From Sphingomonas sp. SUN039 (GTDB lineage Bacteria > Pseudomonadota > Alphaproteobacteria > Sphingomonadales > Sphingomonadaceae): a stretch of DNA of 64,000 nt. Position numbers and translations under genes: made by a program. This document shows, piece by piece, positions 29,991 through 62,341 of this stretch (position 1 is the stretch's first letter; each line of letters opens with the position of its first letter). The stretch lies in contig NZ_CP096972.1 in NCBI RefSeq assembly GCF_024758725.1, positions 3,330,001 to 3,394,000 of the forward strand, written 5' to 3'. The notes beneath the pieces are model-generated. The model did no database searches. It saw only the letters and a list, made by a program, of their open reading frames with translations, and was not told the origin of the DNA.

Positions 29991-30008
29991 ATATCGCCTT
30001 GACCAACT

Positions 30009-30024
30009 GGTGTCAATTGATACC
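30009..30024 (+). promoter_or_regulatory. Operator-like site 2 (near-perfect 16-bp palindrome)
   Basis: GGTGTCAATTGATACC is palindromic except for one mismatched pair. It ends 8 bp before the MarR ATG. A TTGAC-type -35 hexamer overlaps it (CAATTGATACC on one strand, TTGACACC on the other). MarR proteins bind such 16-20 bp palindromes, usually in their own promoter, so autoregulation with control of hppD is the simplest reading. Confidence 0.65.
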
Positions 30025-30032
30025 ATCCCGGC

Positions 30033-30476
30033 ATGAGCACGTTACGCCTCGACGACTTCGTCCCCTACCGCCTGTCGTACACGTCGAACCTGGTCAGCGA
30101 AGCCATCGCGCGCACCTATGAAAGCCTGTTCGGCCTGACGATCCCGGAATGGCGGCTGGTCGCGGTGATCGCCGAGCACGACGGCATAACCCAGGCCGCG
30201 ATCTGCACCCGCACCGGCATGGACAAGGTCACTGTCAGCCGCGCCGCCATCGCGCTGACCGCAAGGGGCCTCGTCGCCCGAGCCCCCAGCCCCACCGACC
30301 GCCGCTCGCACGACCTCGCGCTGACCGGCGAGGGGCGGGCGCTGTACGCGCAGGTGGCCCCCAAGGCACTGGAACTGGAGAAACAGATTTTCGGCGGCCT
30401 GGGCGCGGCGGAATTGCGAGGGTTCGTGGCAACGCTGCGGCGGATCGACGCGATTGTGAGGGGTGGCGGTAACTAA
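30033..30476 (+). CDS. MarR family transcriptional regulator (probable regulator of hppD)
   Basis: 147-residue winged-helix dimer. The N-terminal dimerisation helix is RLSYTSNLVSEAIARTYESLF. The HTH spans AAICTRTGMDKVTVSRAAIALTARGLV (about 53-79), and the wing carries the signature RAPSPTDRRSHDLALTGEG. MarR regulators next to hppD (HpdR type) are known to control tyrosine catabolism. The divergent arrangement and two palindromes between the genes support the same role here. A hairpin with GGGAGAGG arms follows the stop codon. Confidence 0.9.
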   Translation: MSTLRLDDFVPYRLSYTSNLVSEAIARTYESLFGLTIPEWRLVAVIAEHDGITQAAICTRTGMDKVTVSRAAIALTARGLVARAPSPTDRRSHDLALTGEGRALYAQVAPKALELEKQIFGGLGAAELRGFVATLRRIDAIVRGGGN

Positions 30477-30479
30477 GCT

Positions 30480-30533
30480 CCTCTCCCCTTGCGGGAGAGG
30501 ATACGCAGACTTGGCCTCGCCGCTTGGCGAGGC
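30480..30533 (+). terminator. Two tandem hairpins after the MarR gene
   Basis: CCTCTCCC-CTTGC-GGGAGAGG (30480-30500) is followed by GCCTCGCC-GCTT-GGCGAGGC (30514-30533), both perfect. Neither is followed by a U-tract, so Rho-independent termination is not certain. Their sequence resembles short dispersed repeats common in sphingomonad intergenic DNA. Confidence 0.5.
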
Positions 30534-30577
30534 TTAGTCGGAGTTGGTGAGGGGTCGGCAGGAGCAGCAGTCCGACC

Positions 30578-30664
30578 GCCGCCCATCGCCTCGACGAAGC
30601 GGCGCAGATTGCCGACGTCCATGTCGGTGCGCTTTTCCATCTTGGCGACGGCAGCTTGCCCGAC
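30578..30664 (-). pseudogene. Truncated XRE-type HTH regulator/antitoxin fragment
   Basis: The minus strand reads VGQAAVAKMEKRTDM then DVGNLRRFVEAMGG. This is the recognition-helix half of an XRE/HigA-like helix-turn-helix (family pattern SQAAVAKMEKRTD...LRRFVEAMGG). A stop codon lies immediately upstream at 30665-30667, where the fragment abuts the palindromic element at 30668; downstream it runs into repeat sequence. There is no start codon and no first helix, and no partner toxin is seen. A relic of a regulator or toxin-antitoxin gene cut by repeats. Confidence 0.75.
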
Positions 30665-30667
30665 TTA

Positions 30668-30903
30668 CCCCGTCATTCCCGCGAAAGCGGAAATCCAGCT
30701 TCTTCCCTTCCTTCTTTGCGCCTTTTTCTTCCCTTTGCGCCTTTGCGTGAAACATTGGCGCTCTGCCGCGACACGGGTTTTGCCCGAATGAGAGAAAGGG
30801 GTTTCACGCAAAGGCGCAAAGGAGAAGGGAAGGCGCAAAGCTAGAAGAAGTTGGATTGGCCTGCGGCAGCGCTCGGCTCCCGCTTTTGTGGGAATGACGG
30901 GGT
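30668..30903. repeat. Composite palindromic element with nested inverted repeats
   Basis: Outer arms ACCCCGTCATTCCC (from 30667/30668) and GGGAATGACGGGGT (30890-30903) are perfect inverted copies, with AAAGCG/CGCTTT pairing just inside. Nested within is a perfect 21-bp inverted repeat, CTTTGCGCCTTTGCGTGAAA(C) at 30733-30753 and its complement at 30801-30821, flanked by longer imperfect arms. No protein-coding signal. The CGTCATTCCCGCGAAAGCGG arm is a widely dispersed proteobacterial repeat type. Confidence 0.85.
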
Positions 30904-30964
30904 GGGATCGGCGACATGCGCTCCGTCTGTGCATTCACAGACAATGGTCTTCCCTACAGCTTTT

Positions 30965-30979
30965 GTTCCTGCTACGTTC
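30965..30979 (+). promoter_or_regulatory. LexA (SOS) box, alphaproteobacterial type
   Basis: GTTC-CTGCTAC-GTTC matches GTTC-N7-GTTC, the alphaproteobacterial LexA operator, exactly. It is 5 bp upstream of the ATG of a 26-codon ORF and 235 bp upstream of the Tet-like MFS gene. The same motif, inverted, precedes imuA at 56886-56900. A chance match is possible in 64 kb, but the placement near a start codon mirrors imuA. Confidence 0.5.
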
Positions 30980-30984
30980 CGATC

Positions 30985-31065
30985 ATGCGAGACGCTTTCC
31001 ATGCTTCTTATTACCTGCCGTCCGTTTGGCCATGGGAACATGCGGCTGTGGAAAACTCTGGTTAG
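30985..31065 (+). CDS. Possible SOS-controlled micro-ORF (26 residues)
   Basis: ATG at 30985 just after the LexA box opens a frame reading MRDAFHASYYLPSV then WPWEHAAVENSG and a TAG stop. Aromatic-rich (two Tyr, two Trp, one Phe), no clear membrane helix, no family recognised. There is no Shine-Dalgarno between box and ATG, so expression would need leaderless initiation. SOS-induced micropeptides exist in alphaproteobacteria (SidA of Caulobacter, about 29 residues), but no similarity is claimed. It may equally be a relic or not translated. Confidence 0.25.
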   Translation: MRDAFHASYYLPSVWPWEHAAVENSG

Positions 31066-31213
31066 ACGTCTGACTTCGTCGCACATGTTTCAGGTGTGAC
31101 CTTTGTGACCTTTGGCGGTTTTCCGGGCTTTTTTGCTGCCCAAACCCGCCTAGCTTGAGCACCGACCATTTTCATGCAACCGCACCGCACACCAACAGGG
31201 GGACACCACAATC

Positions 31214-32425
31214 ATGGCGGCGCGTAATCATTCCGCCTTGTTTGTGCTCGTCACCATTTTCATCGACGCCATCGGCTTCGGCCTCATCATGCCGGTGCTG
31301 CCGCAGCTGCTGATGACGGTCGGGCGGATCGACCTGAGCCATGCCATCGGCATCGGCGCGTGGATGGGGTTGGCGATGGCGGTGGCGTCGTTCTTTTCGG
31401 CGCCGGTGCTCGGCAATCTGTCCGACGCCTATGGCCGCCGTCCGGTGCTCCTTGCGGCGCTCGGCTGCCTTGCCCTCGACTATTTGTTGCTCGCGGTCGC
31501 GCACACGCTGCCGCTGATCTTTATCGGCCGCGTGCTGTCGGGCGCGTTCGGGGGCAGCTATGCGCCCGCGATGGCCGCTGTCGCCGATGTCTCGACGCCG
31601 GAGGACCGCGCCAAGACCTTCGGCTTCGTCAGTGCCGCCTTCGGCATCGGCTTCGTGCTCGGTCCTGCGCTGGGCGGACTGCTCGGCGAAATGGGGCCGC
31701 GCGCGCCCTTCTATGCGGCGTCGGCGATGGCCGCGATCAACGTGCTCTATGGCCTGATCGTCTTCCCCGAAACCTTGACGCCCGAACGCCGCCGCGCGTT
31801 CGACTGGCGGCGCGCCAATCCGCTCGGCGCACTCAAGACGGCGCGCGCCGCACCCGGCATGATCGGCGTCGCGGTGGTGCTGATCCTGTGGCAGATCGCG
31901 TCGCTGGTCTATCCGCTAACCTGGAGTTTCTACGCCATCGCCCAGCTTGGCTGGTCACCGGCGATGATCGGCCTCAGCCTTGCTGCTGTCGGTGTCACCA
32001 TCGCGCTCAGCCAGATTTTCCTTACCGGCCGTGCGGTCAAGAAGTTCGGGGAACGCGACGCCGCGACCATCGGGCTGGTCGTCGCGATCTGCGGGTTCAT
32101 TGCCTATGCGTTCGTCCGCGAGACTTGGCAGGCATTCCTCGCAATGGGCTTCATCGCGATGCAAAGCTTCGTCCAACCCAGCCTGATGGCGATGCTCAGC
32201 AGGCGGGCCACGCCCGAAACGCAGGGCGAAGTGCAGGGTATCTCGTCGATGGCGCTCGGCATCGGCTCGATCGTCGGCCCGTTGGTGCTGACCGGCCCGA
32301 TGGCCTGGTTCACGGGTGGCGGCGCGCCGGTGTATTTTCCCGGCGCGGCGTTCGTGGTGTCGGCCATCTTCGGCGCGGCAGCGCTGATCGTGTTACGGCA
32401 ACTGCCGAGGGTGCAACCGGTTTAG
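31214..32425 (+). CDS. MFS drug-efflux transporter, TetA-like (DHA1)
   Basis: 403-residue, twelve-helix DHA1 carrier close to the TetA group. Helix 1 has [24 protein letters not shown] (D1 motif region), loop 2-3 motif A is [14 protein letters not shown], and helix 5 motif C is [19 protein letters not shown]. Tetracycline transport is not implied; chromosomal homologues often have other or unknown substrates. The ATG at 31214 follows an AGGGGGA site. No TetR regulator is adjacent. The stop overlaps the convergent CinA-like gene by 4 bp. Confidence 0.9.
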
Positions 32426-33180
32426 ATCCCGCCCGCCACTGTCTCGCGGCCCGTAGCCTCAAGTCCCCCCGCCAAAGCCGCCACACAGGCGCCGAGCACC
32501 GCCTGCTCGGTCGAGCGCACGACGAAATTAGCCCCGACCCGCCCCTCGCGGAAGAAGGGATAGCTGCCGATCTGGCACCCCTCATGCGCTTTCTCGGTCG
32601 CGCGCAGCAGTTCGGCAACTTCGCTCTCCCCGACCCAGCAGCCGAGCGTTGCGCTGAGCAGCGGCGCACCGCCCTCCAGCGTGCCCGACAGCGCATCGAG
32701 CATCATCGCGGTGATGTGCGGCACGCCCGCCATGATGAAAACGTTCCCGTGGCGGATGCCCGGCGCGCCCGACATGCGGTTCTCGATCAGCGTCGCGCCG
32801 TCGGGCACCCGTGCCATGCGCAGCCGCGCCTCGGTGATGCCCCCGCGCGTCTCGTAATAGTTTTCCAGCACCGCCCGCGCCTTCGGATGCACGACCACCT
32901 CGACGCCCAGCGCCTTGGCCACCGCATCGACCGTAATATCGTCATGCGTTGGCCCGATCCCGCCGGTGGTGAACAGATAGTCGTTGCGCGCGCGCAGCTG
33001 GTTGACCGCCTCGACGATTGCGTCCTCGACATCGGGGACGACGCGCACCTCGCGCAATCGGATACCCTGCAGGTTCAGCCACAGCGCGATCTGCGCGATG
33101 TTTTTGTCCTGCGTGCGGCCCGACAGGATTTCGTCGCCGATCACGGCCAAGGCGGCGGTCCAGATGCGCTGACTGGTCAT
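32422..33180 (-). CDS. CinA-like competence/damage-inducible family protein (molybdopterin-binding domain)
   Basis: 252 residues with a MoCF-type fold: AALAVIGDEILSGRTQDKN at the N-terminus and FTTGGIGPTHDDITVDAVAKAL (the T-G-G-x-G-P-T-x-D motif, about 70-92). The AGVPHITAMMLDAL segment follows. Only the N-terminal CinA domain is present; the C-terminal nicotinamide-nucleotide amidase domain is absent, as in the stand-alone YfaY/CinA-N group, some of which hydrolyse ADP-ribose or related nucleotides. Divergent from map with 28 bp between starts. Confidence 0.88.
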   Translation of the reverse strand: MTSQRIWTAALAVIGDEILSGRTQDKNIAQIALWLNLQGIRLREVRVVPDVEDAIVEAVNQLRARNDYLFTTGGIGPTHDDITVDAVAKALGVEVVVHPKARAVLENYYETRGGITEARLRMARVPDGATLIENRMSGAPGIRHGNVFIMAGVPHITAMMLDALSGTLEGGAPLLSATLGCWVGESEVAELLRATEKAHEGCQIGSYPFFREGRVGANFVVRSTEQAVLGACVAALAGGLEATGRETVAGGI

Positions 33181-56885: not shown

Positions 56886-56900
56886 GAACATAATAAGAAC
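56886..56900 (+). promoter_or_regulatory. LexA (SOS) box of the imuA-imuB-dnaE2 operon
   Basis: GAAC-ATAATAA-GAAC is the complement form of GTTC-N7-GTTC. It ends 2 bp before the imuA ATG, leaving no room for a standard ribosome-binding site. LexA control of this cassette is established in Caulobacter and other bacteria. The box itself contains CATAAT (56889-56894), a fair -10 hexamer. Confidence 0.85.
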
Positions 56901-56902
56901 AT

Positions 56903-57664
56903 ATGATTCGACCTTTTCCTGTCCGGCACTGTCATCGAACCCTCCCGCGCGCGGTCGGTGGCAGTGCGGCTGTCGATCCTGTGTCGTTCGGTGTCGATGG
57001 AATCGACGCGCGCATCGGTGGCGGCTTGAGGCAAAGCGCATTGCATGAGGTTTTTGCCGCATCGGCTGCAGACGGCAGCGCCGCTGCGGGCTTTGCGGTC
57101 ATGATTGCCATGCGGGCCAGTGTTTCCGGCCGTCCGGTCATCTGGGTGCGCGAACAGCGTTGTGGGCCCCATAGCGGACACCTTTATGCTGCCGGTCTTG
57201 TCGAATTGGGGTTCGATCCCGACGATCTCATTTTGATCGAGGCACCCGATGTGCGGGCCGTGCTTCGCGCCGGGGCGGACATCGTCAAATGCCGACAGGT
57301 CGGCGCGGTCGTTATCGAACCCAGGGGAAAGGCACCGCTGCTCGACCTGACAGCCTCGCGCAGGCTTTCGATGGCGGCGGCGGTATCCGGCGTGCTGACA
57401 TTGGTGCTGCGCGTCGATGCCGAGCCTGCACCCAGTGCCGCCCAAACGCGGTGGCAGGTGGCAGCGGCCCCTTCTTCGCCGCTTGCTGCCAATGCCCCCG
57501 GTGCACCCGCTTTCGATATCGCCCTGCTGCGCCACCGCGGCGGCATTGCCGGGTTCGAGGCCCGTCTGGAGTGGAACCGTGATACAAGAAGCTTCACGCC
57601 GCTATCTGGCGGTGTTCCTGCCGTTCCTGCCGTCGGAGCGGATCAAGCGCGAAAAGCCGCCTGA
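56903..57664 (+). CDS. imuA: SOS mutasome protein ImuA
   Basis: 253-residue RecA-like protein, part of the ImuA-ImuB-DnaE2 translesion system behind damage-induced mutagenesis. N-terminal VSFGVDGIDARIGGGLRQSALHEVFA is the family start, and WVREQRCGPHSGHLYAAGLVELGFDPDDLILIEA follows; the C-terminus has FDIALLRHRGGIAGFEARLEWNRDTRSF. No complete Walker A is seen, as usual for ImuA. ATG 56903 lies 2 bp from the LexA box. The imuB start lies 86 bp inside its 3' end. Confidence 0.93.
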   Translation: MIRPFPVRHCHRTLPRAVGGSAAVDPVSFGVDGIDARIGGGLRQSALHEVFAASAADGSAAAGFAVMIAMRASVSGRPVIWVREQRCGPHSGHLYAAGLVELGFDPDDLILIEAPDVRAVLRAGADIVKCRQVGAVVIEPRGKAPLLDLTASRRLSMAAAVSGVLTLVLRVDAEPAPSAAQTRWQVAAAPSSPLAANAPGAPAFDIALLRHRGGIAGFEARLEWNRDTRSFTPLSGGVPAVPAVGADQARKAA

Positions 57665-59090
57665 CGCGCCCTTCGCGCTGGTCGAAAAGCAGCGCGGCAG
57701 CATGCGGCTGGCCGCAGTCGATATGGCGGCGCGTGCACTCGGTCTTGCACCTGGTCTTGCGCTTGCAGACGCCCGCTCCCTGCTGCCCGGACTGCTTGTT
57801 TTCGATGCCGACAGCCGCGCCGATGCGGCGCTGCTCGATTGGCTCGCCGATGCCTGCGACCGTTATACGCCGATGATTGCGACCGATCCGCCGCAGGGGT
57901 TGCTCCTCGACATAACCGGCTGCGTCCATCCATTCGGAAGCGGAGAGCGCGGGCTGGCGGACGACCTGGCAAGGCGGCTTGCTAGGCTTGGTCTGACGGC
58001 GTGCCTTTCGCTGGCGGATACGCCCGATGCGGCTGCGGCACTGGCCCGGCATGGAGGCGACGATGTGCACGCCCTTCCGGTCGCTGCACTACGCACCGAC
58101 CCCGATATTCATGTCGCGCTGACGCGGGCAGGTTTGAAAGCCATCGGCGATGTCGCGCGATTGCCGTCGGCACCGCTTGCGGCCCGGTTCGGCAAAGCCC
58201 TGCCTGTTTTGCTGGCGCGCCTGCTCGGCGCGATCGACGTCCGCATCACGCCCCGCCGGAGGCTTGCCGAAATCGAGACGGAGGTGCGTTTTGGCGAACC
58301 GGTGGCGCACACCGAAATCGTGCTCGACACTATAGCCGGGCTGGTCGGGGATGCCGCCGTCACTTTGTCCGAACGCGGTGTCGGCGGGCGGCGTTTTTCG
58401 GTCGCCCTGTTCCGCAGCGACGGCCATGTCGCACGCCTGTCGGTCGAGACGGGGCAGCCGGTGCGCGACCCCGCAGTGCTCGACCGGCTGTTCCGCGAGC
58501 GGATCGACACGCTTGCGGATCCGCTCGATCCGGGGTTCGGTTATGACATGATCCGGCTGGCAGTGCATGTTGTCGAGCCGCTCGCACCCGAACAATTGCG
58601 GCTCGATGGCGGTAAAACTGCCGACCGCGAGCTGGCGGCGTTAATCGACCGGCTGGGCACACGGCTGGGGCGCAATCGCGTCCGGCGCTTTGCCTCTGTC
58701 GACACGCATATTCCCGAACAGTCGGCGCTCGAATTCCCCGCTGTCGAAACCCGCAAGACCGGTGCGTGGCCCAGGCCCGAGCCCGGCGAACCGCCGCTGC
58801 GCCCCCTGCATTTGTTCGACCCGCCGCACCGGATAGAGGTGATCGCCGAAGTCCCCGACGGGCCGCCGCGACGGTTCAAATGGCGGCGGGCGATGTACGA
58901 GGTCGCCCGGCACGAAGGGCCCGAACGCATCGCTGCCGAATGGTGGACGCGTCGCGACAATGCCGGGCTGACCCGCGACTATTACCGCGTCGAGGACGTG
59001 CGCGGCCGACGCTACTGGCTGTTCCGCCACGGCCTTTATGGCACTGAAAAGGCGCACCCTGTCTGGTATCTGCATGGGCTGTTCGCATGA
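57579..59090 (+). CDS. imuB: Y-family polymerase-like protein ImuB
   Basis: 503 residues from GTG 57579, chosen for the GGAG site at 57568-57571 and the start VIQEASRRYLAVFLPFLPSERI. ImuB is a catalytically inactive Y-family homologue that recruits DnaE2 through the sliding clamp. Where active Y-polymerases have the acidic DxD start, this has LAVFLPFLP, consistent with inactivity. LLLDITGCVHPFGSGERGLADDL is the palm remnant, and AIGDVARLPSAPLAARFG the helix-hairpin-helix region. The C-terminal RRFKWRRAMYEVARHEGPERIAAEWW block is typical of ImuB. Overlaps imuA by 86 bp and dnaE2 by 4 bp. Confidence 0.94.
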   Translation: MIQEASRRYLAVFLPFLPSERIKREKPPDAPFALVEKQRGSMRLAAVDMAARALGLAPGLALADARSLLPGLLVFDADSRADAALLDWLADACDRYTPMIATDPPQGLLLDITGCVHPFGSGERGLADDLARRLARLGLTACLSLADTPDAAAALARHGGDDVHALPVAALRTDPDIHVALTRAGLKAIGDVARLPSAPLAARFGKALPVLLARLLGAIDVRITPRRRLAEIETEVRFGEPVAHTEIVLDTIAGLVGDAAVTLSERGVGGRRFSVALFRSDGHVARLSVETGQPVRDPAVLDRLFRERIDTLADPLDPGFGYDMIRLAVHVVEPLAPEQLRLDGGKTADRELAALIDRLGTRLGRNRVRRFASVDTHIPEQSALEFPAVETRKTGAWPRPEPGEPPLRPLHLFDPPHRIEVIAEVPDGPPRRFKWRRAMYEVARHEGPERIAAEWWTRRDNAGLTRDYYRVEDVRGRRYWLFRHGLYGTEKAHPVWYLHGLFA

Positions 59091-62000
59091 GCGGTTTTGC
59101 CGAACTGGCGGCGGCGACCAATTTCTCGTTCCTGGAAGGGGCGTCGCATCCGCATGAAATGGTGACGGAGGCATTTGCCCTCGGCCATGGCGGGATCGGT
59201 ATTGCCGACCGCAACACCGTGGCCGGTGTCGTCCGCGCCCATGTTGCGTTGCGCGACCTCAGGGCTGCCGGACACGCGAAAGATTTCAGACTGGTCGTCG
59301 GCGCACGGCTGTCGTTCGCCGATAATACGCCCGACATTATCGCCTATCCGACCGACCGGCGCGCTTGGGGGCGGCTGTGCCGCTTGCTGAGTCTGGGCAA
59401 TTTGCGTGCGACAAAGGGCGCGTGCCAGCTGTTCTTCGACGACTTGCTGGAATGGGGGGAAGGGATGGTGTTGATCGTCCTCCCCGGCGCGTCGCGTCTT
59501 TGTCGAATCGACCGGTTGGGGGTTGTTCTTCGCCTCCGCCAACTTGTGGGCGATAACCTCTGGATCGGCGCAACCATGCACCGCAGCGGCGGCGACAGGC
59601 GTCGGCTGGCGGCTCTGCAGTCGCTGTCGGGCGAAGCAGGCATTCCTCTGCTCGCGCTTAACGCCCCGCTTTTCGCGACGCCTGCGGATCGTCCTTTGCA
59701 GGACGTCATGACCTGCATCCGCGAGAAGGCAAAGCTCGCCGACGTCGGTCGCAAACTCGCCGCCAATGCCGAACGCCACCTGAAACACGCACGCGAAATG
59801 GTCCGGCTGTTCGCAGATGCGCCTGACGCGCTAGCCCAGACTTCGGCACTTCTGGACCGGATCGACTTCACGCTCGACGACCTGCGTTACGAATATCCGC
59901 ATGAGCCCGTGCCGCCCGGTTGGACGCCGATGGGCTGGCTGATCCGACTGACGATGCGCGCCGCGCGCGACCGCCACGAACGCACCCGCCTGCCAAAGAA
60001 ATTGCGCGCGATGCTCCGCGAGGAATTCGGCCTCATACGCGACCAGAATTATGCCTATTATTTTCTGACCGTTCACGATCTCGTCCGCTTCGCGCGCGAG
60101 CAGGAGCCGCCGATCCTGTGTCAGGGCCGGGGTTCGGCGGCGAATTCGGTGGTGTGTTTCATGCTGGGGATAACTTCGGTCGATCCGGTTTCCCATAATT
60201 TGCTGTTCTCGCGCTTCGTCTCGGCGGACCGCAACGAGCCGCCCGATATCGATGTCGATTTCGAGCATGAACGCCGCGAGGAAGTGATGCAGTACGTCTA
60301 TCGTCGCTATGGCCGCCATCGCGCCGGGATCGCCGCGACGATCGCGCATTACCGTCCGCGCAGTGCGGTGCGCGAGGTGGGCAAAGCGCTGGGGATGACC
60401 GAGGACGTGACGGCACGCCTCGTTTCGACAGTATGGGGCAGTCACGCCTCGACGATGGACGGGAAACGCATCGCCGAAACCGGGTTCGACCTGGACAATC
60501 CCGAAATCGCACGGCTGAACATGCTTGTCGGACGCTTGTTGGGCTTTCCGCGCCATCTCGGCCAGCATGTGGGCGGTTTCGTGCTGACCCATGACCGGCT
60601 CGACGAGACGGTGCCGGTCCACAATGCCGCGATGCCCGACCGGACCTTCATCGAATGGGACAAGGACGATATCGACGCGCTGGGATTGATGAAGGTCGAT
60701 GTGCTCGCGCTCGGCATGCTGACCTGCATCCGCAAATCCTATGACCTGATGCGGCAGCACGGGCTTGGCGATCACACGCTCGAAGTCGACCTCGATTCGA
60801 GCGATCCGGCAGTCTATGACATGCTGTGCAAGGGCGACAGTATCGGCGTGTTCCAGGTCGAGAGCCGCGCGCAGATCAACATGCTGCCGCGCCTAAAACC
60901 AAAAAACCTCTACGACCTGACCGTGCAAGTCGCGATCGTGCGGCCGGGACCGATCCAGGGCGACATGGTGCATCCCTACCTCAGGCGGCGCTCGGGTATC
61001 GAGAAAGCCGAATTCCCCTCTCCCAAACCACCGCACGACCCCGACGAGCTGCGCACCCTGCTCGGCAAGACCTATGGCGTGCCGCTGTTCCAGGAACAGG
61101 CGATGAAGCTCGCGATTGTCGCGGCGGATTTCACGCCGTCCGAAGCTAACAAACTGCGCCGCGCGATGGCGACGTTCCGCCATGTCGGTGGCATGGACAA
61201 GTTTCAGGAAAAGCTGGTCGGCGGAATGGTCGCGCGCGGCTACGAACGCGCCTTCGCCGAGCGCTGCTACAAGCAGATCGAGGGGTTCGGTAGCTATGGC
61301 TTTCCCGAAAGCCATGCGCTGTCGTTCGCGCGGCTGGTCTATGTTTCGTCGTGGATCAAATGCCACCATCCGGCAGTGTTCGCCTGCGCGCTGCTCAATT
61401 CGCAGCCGATGGGTTTCTACGCCCCCGCCCAGATCGTTCGCGATGCGCAGGAACACGCAGTCGAGGTTCGCACGATCGACGTCAATGCGAGCCTGTGGGA
61501 CAACGGTCTGGAATTTTCTGAGGGGCCGGATATGCCCGCGCTCCGTCTCGGCCTGCGCCAGATCGACGGGTTTCGCGAGGAATGGGCGAACCGGGTTGTG
61601 CTCGGCCGACCTTATGACAGTGTCGAGACATTGGCCCGCCGGGCCTGCCTGCCTGCCCGGGCGCTGCGGCTGCTTGCCGACGCCGATGCGCTGGGATCGC
61701 TCGACCTTGGCCGGCGCGCCGGGGGCTGGGATGTGCGGCGCACGCACAGCGACGTGCTGCCCTTGTTCGCTGCCGCAGATGCCCGCGAGCTGGGCGAAGA
61801 ACCTGCCTTCACCCTGCCCGAGATGCCGGCGGGCGAGGAAGTCGCCGCCGATTACCAGACCATCCGCCTGTCGCTGAAGGGGCATCCGATGGCGTTCTTG
61901 CGCGACGGTTTCGCGGCGGAAAACGTACTGAGCTGCGCGCAAACCTCGGCTGCGAGAAATGGTGCCCGCGTCAAGACCGCCGGAATCGTCCTCGTCCGTC

Positions 62001-62341
62001 AACGCCCGGGCAAAGGCAACGCAATCTTCGTGACCATCGAGGACGAAACCGGCGTCACCAACATCGTCATCTGGGCGCGGTTGTTCGAAACATTGCGGCG
62101 CGAAGTGATGGCCGCGCGCCTGATGCTGGTCGAGGGTGAAGTACAGCATAGTCCCGAAGGCGTCGTCCATCTGATGGCGACCAAGATCCAAGACCGCACG
62201 GCGGCGTTGCGGTACCTGTCCGAGGCGCATGACGCGAATCCCTCGATGTCGCGCTCCGACGCGTTTCTGCATCCGCAATACCCCCGCCACGGCCATCCCC
62301 GCGATGTGCGTATTTTGCCGAAATCGCGGGATTTTCACTGA
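59087..62341 (+). CDS. dnaE2: Error-prone DNA polymerase DnaE2
   Basis: 1084-residue C-family polymerase used for lesion bypass under SOS conditions. PHP domain at the N-terminus (FAELAAATNFSFLEGASHP). Palm motifs include LCQGRGSAANSVVCF and the metal-binding RNEPPDIDVDFEHERREEV. The tail of the fingers has GMDKFQEKLVGGMVARGY. The OB domain (RQRPGKGNAIFVTIEDETG) and the terminal PKSRDFH are typical of DnaE2. It lacks DnaE1's long C-terminal extension. ATG overlaps the imuB stop by 4 bp. The operon is complete; the 150 bp after it contain no gene. Confidence 0.97.
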   Translation: MSGFAELAAATNFSFLEGASHPHEMVTEAFALGHGGIGIADRNTVAGVVRAHVALRDLRAAGHAKDFRLVVGARLSFADNTPDIIAYPTDRRAWGRLCRLLSLGNLRATKGACQLFFDDLLEWGEGMVLIVLPGASRLCRIDRLGVVLRLRQLVGDNLWIGATMHRSGGDRRRLAALQSLSGEAGIPLLALNAPLFATPADRPLQDVMTCIREKAKLADVGRKLAANAERHLKHAREMVRLFADAPDALAQTSALLDRIDFTLDDLRYEYPHEPVPPGWTPMGWLIRLTMRAARDRHERTRLPKKLRAMLREEFGLIRDQNYAYYFLTVHDLVRFAREQEPPILCQGRGSAANSVVCFMLGITSVDPVSHNLLFSRFVSADRNEPPDIDVDFEHERREEVMQYVYRRYGRHRAGIAATIAHYRPRSAVREVGKALGMTEDVTARLVSTVWGSHASTMDGKRIAETGFDLDNPEIARLNMLVGRLLGFPRHLGQHVGGFVLTHDRLDETVPVHNAAMPDRTFIEWDKDDIDALGLMKVDVLALGMLTCIRKSYDLMRQHGLGDHTLEVDLDSSDPAVYDMLCKGDSIGVFQVESRAQINMLPRLKPKNLYDLTVQVAIVRPGPIQGDMVHPYLRRRSGIEKAEFPSPKPPHDPDELRTLLGKTYGVPLFQEQAMKLAIVAADFTPSEANKLRRAMATFRHVGGMDKFQEKLVGGMVARGYERAFAERCYKQIEGFGSYGFPESHALSFARLVYVSSWIKCHHPAVFACALLNSQPMGFYAPAQIVRDAQEHAVEVRTIDVNASLWDNGLEFSEGPDMPALRLGLRQIDGFREEWANRVVLGRPYDSVETLARRACLPARALRLLADADALGSLDLGRRAGGWDVRRTHSDVLPLFAAADARELGEEPAFTLPEMPAGEEVAADYQTIRLSLKGHPMAFLRDGFAAENVLSCAQTSAARNGARVKTAGIVLVRQRPGKGNAIFVTIEDETGVTNIVIWARLFETLRREVMAARLMLVEGEVQHSPEGVVHLMATKIQDRTAALRYLSEAHDANPSMSRSDAFLHPQYPRHGHPRDVRILPKSRDFH

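Follow-up and report, generated by a model that had tools for sequence, protein, structure and literature searches.

We propose that the LexA-type box at 30965-30979 of the window, the 64,000-nucleotide stretch of Sphingomonas sp. SUN039 analyzed here, overlaps the -10 of a promoter that belongs to a dispersed, non-coding module of the Sphingomonadales; in this copy the promoter would be repressed by LexA and would send a leader towards a Tet-like MFS gene. We put the probability of this reading as a whole at about 45%; judged from nucleotide sequence, the box most likely marks the promoter of a non-coding leader directed towards the MFS gene, which is possibly repressed by LexA. The first-pass annotation had described the box as isolated and had placed a small SOS peptide behind it. 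The box in fact belongs to a composite element that recurs in the genome and in the order. We find this module, and chiefly its lineage-specific tandem repeat, of greater interest.

Architecture of the window copy

The features of the copy and its surroundings are as follows.

30950-30958 (+): -35-like element TTCCCTACA, with the family consensus T[GT]TCCTACA; 13 of the 18 repeat copies are preceded by such a block, in two cases with TTGACA instead.
30965-30979 (+): LexA-type box GTTC-CTGCTAC-GTTC; the same 15 letters recur in this promoter context in a different genus (L273, L314).
30973-30978 (+): -10-like TACGTT within the box; the column profile of 80 related promoters has an extended -10, C-T-G-C-T/C-A-T-N-N-T.
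About 30984-30986: expected transcription start.
30985-31065 (+): ORF of the first-pass annotation, 26 codons plus TAG, translation MRDAFHASYYLPSVWPWEHAAVENSG; judged not to be a gene.
30993-31001 (+): decayed boxA-like CGCTTTCCA; sister copies have GCTCTTTCAAATCGT or GCTCTTTCCACC, and rrn leaders served for comparison.
31087-31115 (+): dispersed 29-bp repeat GTTTCAGGTGTGACCTTTGTGACCTTTGG.
31096-31113 (+): tandem direct repeat GTGACCTTT-GTGACCTTT of period 9, a periodicity also seen at related loci.
31116-31134 (+): weak hairpin CGG-TTTT-CCG with GGC and a T-run, by its sequence a possible weak terminator.
31214-32425 (+): Tet-like MFS transporter gene, the possible downstream target; best NCBIfam match tet_MFS_A_B_C_D at 278.5 bits, under the cut-off of 475, and Pfam MFS_1.

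The box, GTTCCTGCTACGTTC on the forward strand, is an exact GTTC-N7-GTTC, as the first-pass annotation had recognized, and its distances also hold: the box ends 5 bp ahead of the ATG at 30985, and the MFS gene, which had been placed 235 bp on, starts 234 bp past it. In its complete form the module would run from a -35-like T[GT]TCCTACA and an extended -10 through an rrn-like boxA (decayed here) and a spacer to the tandem 9-bp repeat. From this arrangement we infer an active promoter at which RNA polymerase would start near 30985 and make an untranslated leader extending past the repeat; this leader would end at the weak hairpin or read through into the MFS gene. As the window promoter carries a GTTC-N7-GTTC operator, LexA would bind there and keep it off until DNA damage occurs. 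The -10 element occupies columns 8-13 of the box register, so the overlap would make repression possible. The copy in the window fits the family only weakly (E 0.044 with the model described below), having a decayed boxA and one change in the -35-like element; the rrn-type boxA, GCTCTTT after a hairpin, is absent from it, and only CGCTTTCCA is found at that place. A terminator scan did not report the hairpin at 31116-31134 at its thresholds.

Dispersal in the genome and across the order

A search of this genome with 30920-31213 returned 11 further matches, all inside 31083-31136. Allowing up to 3 mismatches, the genome contains the 29-mer of 31087-31115 18 times and its reversed control not at all; a nineteenth copy, with a repeat period of 11, lies at G000:C1:1713379. 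The promoter-like block precedes 13 of the 18 by 85-185 bp, and in the better copies T[GT]TCCTACA is followed, after six bases, by GTTY and TAYGTT at a fixed distance, the full -35-like form being C-T[GT]TCCTACA. In many copies GCTCTTTCAAATCGT, or something close to it, stands between the block and the repeat, and GCTCTTT is exact in seven of the genome's 13 module copies and additionally in L145. We read GCTCTTT as boxA because the rrn leaders of the order carry it after a hairpin, followed by NNCATTGT or a similar sequence; these leaders were taken from relatives because the SSU rRNA family gave no match in this genome. In one of them, from another genome of the genus (L171 of G002), TTTTCCTACA stands just upstream of the TTGACG of the rRNA promoter.

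The likeness of the module to an rRNA leader with boxA, an antitermination site, thus lies in the hairpin and GCTCTTT of many sister copies, as in the rrn leaders of the order. The module differs in being short and without rRNA after it, in its T[GT]TCCTACA promoter and tandem 9-bp repeat, and in the decay of boxA in the window. Like REP- or MITE-type repeats, it is present in about 18 copies that are mostly intergenic and in part clearly duplicated (L053/L060, L059/L145); unlike them, it is conserved only in the promoter, the boxA and the 29-bp end, and terminal inverted repeats were not seen. A same-strand gene is faced by eight of the 18 copies and a convergent gene by 10. Gene contexts, here and below, come from a simple codon-usage gene caller, and rplU, groEL, recA, recG, rpsB, trmFO, def and ndk were named by eye. 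No description of such a module was found in the literature searched, as covered by titles and the opening of abstracts.

Five copies of the 29-bp repeat stand without the promoter block (L067, L056, L064, L066 and L058), and for four of these a same-strand gene begins 38-69 bp further on; that at L067 occupies the groES-groEL gap (genes named by eye). At L064 (G000:C1:165124, -) an exact box precedes a lysozyme-like gene (named by eye) by 33 bp; the repeat and a holin-like gene come next, and it is possible that the two genes are an SOS-controlled lysis pair.

The repeat itself is rarely kept letter by letter: only two of 296 genomes of the order, this one included, have it with at most 2 mismatches, and the second is an uncultured member of another family of the Sphingomonadales (G036, CAKZYD01). 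There the promoter block accompanies 20 of 21 copies, with the order of parts unchanged and the -10 letters at a near-constant distance; the distance between block and repeat is either about 74-78 or about 91-95. A convergent gene is faced by 14 of these copies and a same-strand gene by five, while for two no gene was called. A second promoter, GCTCTTTGACA...TATAAT, is a possible reading of the CAKZYD01 copies; given the rrn leaders, boxA is the better one. Consensus folding of 12 of these copies gave 8 pairs, none of them changed on both sides, so that conservation of an RNA structure was not supported. When the genus was searched with a gapped pattern, the true copies, amid noise, were mostly those of this genome and of G005, and the reversed control was no poorer in matches.

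The promoter side reaches further. A sequence-only model of the left block, aligned from 20 of 25 extracted left blocks with the window copy deliberately left out, recovers that copy at 30953-30995 (12.1 bits, E 0.044) and, at E of at most 0.05, matches 72 of the 296 genomes against about 15 expected by chance. Relatives of the module occur across the Sphingomonadales. The 80 loci of the column profile (L234-L313) are from other genera of the family and were taken from the model's listed matches, best E first, with matches lacking the model start and weaker ones omitted. A tandem repeat of period 9 lies downstream in 37 of them, as against 51 of 252 control windows, and periods 8 and 10 in 10-12 of the 80. 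The letters of the repeat vary from lineage to lineage, but copies of one genome may share them; GTGTAGCTTTTGTAGC, for instance, is present in all four copies of G059.

Most of the repeat versions in these loci can be read as V-x-F twice, which raises the alternative that the module ends in a conserved coding repeat (VTFVTF, VNFLNL, VAFVAF, VHFVHF). The prominence of period 9 at 37 of the 80 loci and, in frames read by eye, the changes on wobble positions in several lineages speak for such a peptide; against it, versions of period 10-11 keep the letters and break the frame (L145, L092, L089, L277), several copies are in reverse orientation, and the sequence after the repeat differs between copies, so that we regard a coding repeat as extremely unlikely.

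If the module alone is real, it is a recurrent composite element, made of promoter, boxA and lineage-specific tandem repeat, that is common to distant families. A broader conjecture, which we think rather unlikely, is that the order has a dispersed family of small boxA-bearing non-coding units, a subset of them under LexA, such that DNA damage would switch on many leader RNAs simultaneously, and that the tandem repeat co-evolves with a trans-acting factor, in step within each lineage.

LexA operator or promoter letters

In PMC7987155 the alphaproteobacterial LexA motif is GTTC-N7-GTTC, and PMC12700426 has Caulobacter LexA boxes, such as GTTCttgttatGTTC, that also contain TATGTTC. The window box matches this operator exactly; the difference is its position inside a dispersed, apparently non-coding module that mostly lies beside genes not known to belong to the SOS response. 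By number alone the boxes stay within chance, as shuffled sequence gives 1.86 +/- 1.33 where the window has four exact ones, a number attained in 10 of 100 shuffles, and the genome has 87 against 60 for the reversed pattern. The first-pass annotation had compared the closeness of box and ATG with that at imuA. A box at 56886-56900 (-, the other strand) does precede an ORF at 56903 by 2 bp, and imuB-type and dnaE2-type genes, identified by Pfam, come after this ORF (region 56886-62341); the ORF in the imuA position, of 253 aa, had no Pfam match.

Within the module the two halves of the box keep company. Exact boxes at the module position were seen by eye in five of 15 promoters of this genome (L055, L061, L065, L068, L157), and three more have GTTT-N7-GTTC, with the left half altered. 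In the other genera of the family, the exact box is found in six of the 80 loci, from five genomes and two genera, as against 0.56 expected with independent halves (P about 5e-6, kinship ignored), in a sample chosen by a model whose 20 rows included boxed copies. In the two registers of these loci the left GTTC occurs six and five times, the right one five and three times, and both together three and three times, and no GTTC pair with a spacing of N6 or N8 was present. This excess argues against the box being mere promoter letters, whose halves should occur independently, and the pairing should not come from the model because its columns are independent.

The alternative that has to be taken most seriously, and which we consider quite possible, accepts the module and makes the box a coincidence: TACGTT or TATGTT would be the -10, the left GTTC would be spacer, and LexA would not act here. 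It is favored by the other family, where the same module has no box in any of the 20 CAKZYD01 copies inspected by eye, by the three GTTT-N7-GTTC copies of this genome, and by the occurrence of this type of sequence at aceA and moeA and ahead of genes resembling rpsB and trmFO, none being a known SOS gene. Against it stand the co-occurrence of the halves far above independence, at N7 only and in two registers, and the situation at rmuC, where both halves are retained though the middle changes. This last box is present in two genera, here and in G298, as GTTCCATATACGTTC and GTTCCAGCTATGTTC, which is not an unbiased sample; in G005, GTTCTGGCTACGTTC lies behind a def-like gene on a contig that ends before rmuC (L092). 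An exact GTTC-N7-GTTC overlapping the -10 is thus seen in three species with different middles, at rmuC in L061 (G000) and L316 (G298) and behind the def-like gene in L092. Among the six boxed loci outside this genome, rmuC is the only recombination- or repair-type target, the others lying by aceA, by moeA, between ndk and holC and by genes without a link to DNA repair.

The claim that the box is an SOS operator gains support from the co-occurrence of its halves at the module position, beyond chance and in two registers; the unboxed MFS homologues described below, the mostly non-repair neighbors and the boxless module of the other family count against it. On the sequence evidence we consider LexA control of this particular copy about an even bet and control of a subset of the promoters, including that of rmuC, plausible, which would make rmuC a candidate member of the SOS response. 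If so, SOS control in the order would reach, besides rmuC, dispersed non-coding units resembling rrn leaders, which annotation misses since in many cases there is no protein after them.

The short ORF, the MFS gene and the surrounding gap

A LexA-controlled peptide of 26 aa comparable to SidA, as the first-pass annotation had suggested, has in its favor the exact box 5 bp before the ATG. SidA of Caulobacter is an SOS-induced peptide with a single membrane helix; the resemblance ends with a short ORF after a LexA box, as the window ORF lacks coding evidence and no hydrophobic stretch or membrane helix was seen, by eye alone, in MRDAFHASYYLPSVWPWEHAAVENSG. In codon usage it scores -1.07 nats, whereas 26-codon windows of the MFS gene have a median of 8.13 and never go lower than 0.64; in Markov simulations of the region, one ATG in two starts a frame of 26 codons or more. 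The ORF is itself the tail of a 49-codon frame whose ATG lies upstream at 30916, and the ATG at 30985 would coincide with the expected +1, no purine-rich ribosome site being visible by eye ahead of it. Conservation of the codons, proposed with the peptide as a check, did not appear: the frame is absent from the sister copies, whose middles are unrelated, and a search of 58 relatives with 30920-31213 gave matches below E 0.001 only to the repeat and none to the ORF. Such a peptide is therefore very unlikely.

A MarR-type gene and the Tet-like MFS gene flank the box, leaving a gap of about 740 bp; control of the latter gene by the box is possible. The box could also be an ordinary LexA-regulated promoter of this gene, with the dispersed repeat incidental, as the MFS gene is the next one on the strand, 234 bp away. 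We consider this unlikely, given that none of 25 MFS homologues (fetched loci of at least 34% identity, spanning 34-67%) has an exact box within 450 bp upstream and that convergent genes lie ahead of many sister promoters in this class.

In the same gap, 30667-30903 holds large nested imperfect inverted repeats with arms of 47 nt (81%) and 33 nt (82%) and CTTTGCGCCTTTGCGTGAAAC. An Rfam search of 30000-32500 at a permissive threshold found nothing at the module and four sub-threshold microRNA matches on a hairpin at 30716-30838; these are spurious products of the inverted repeats, which look like a mobile or REP-type palindrome.
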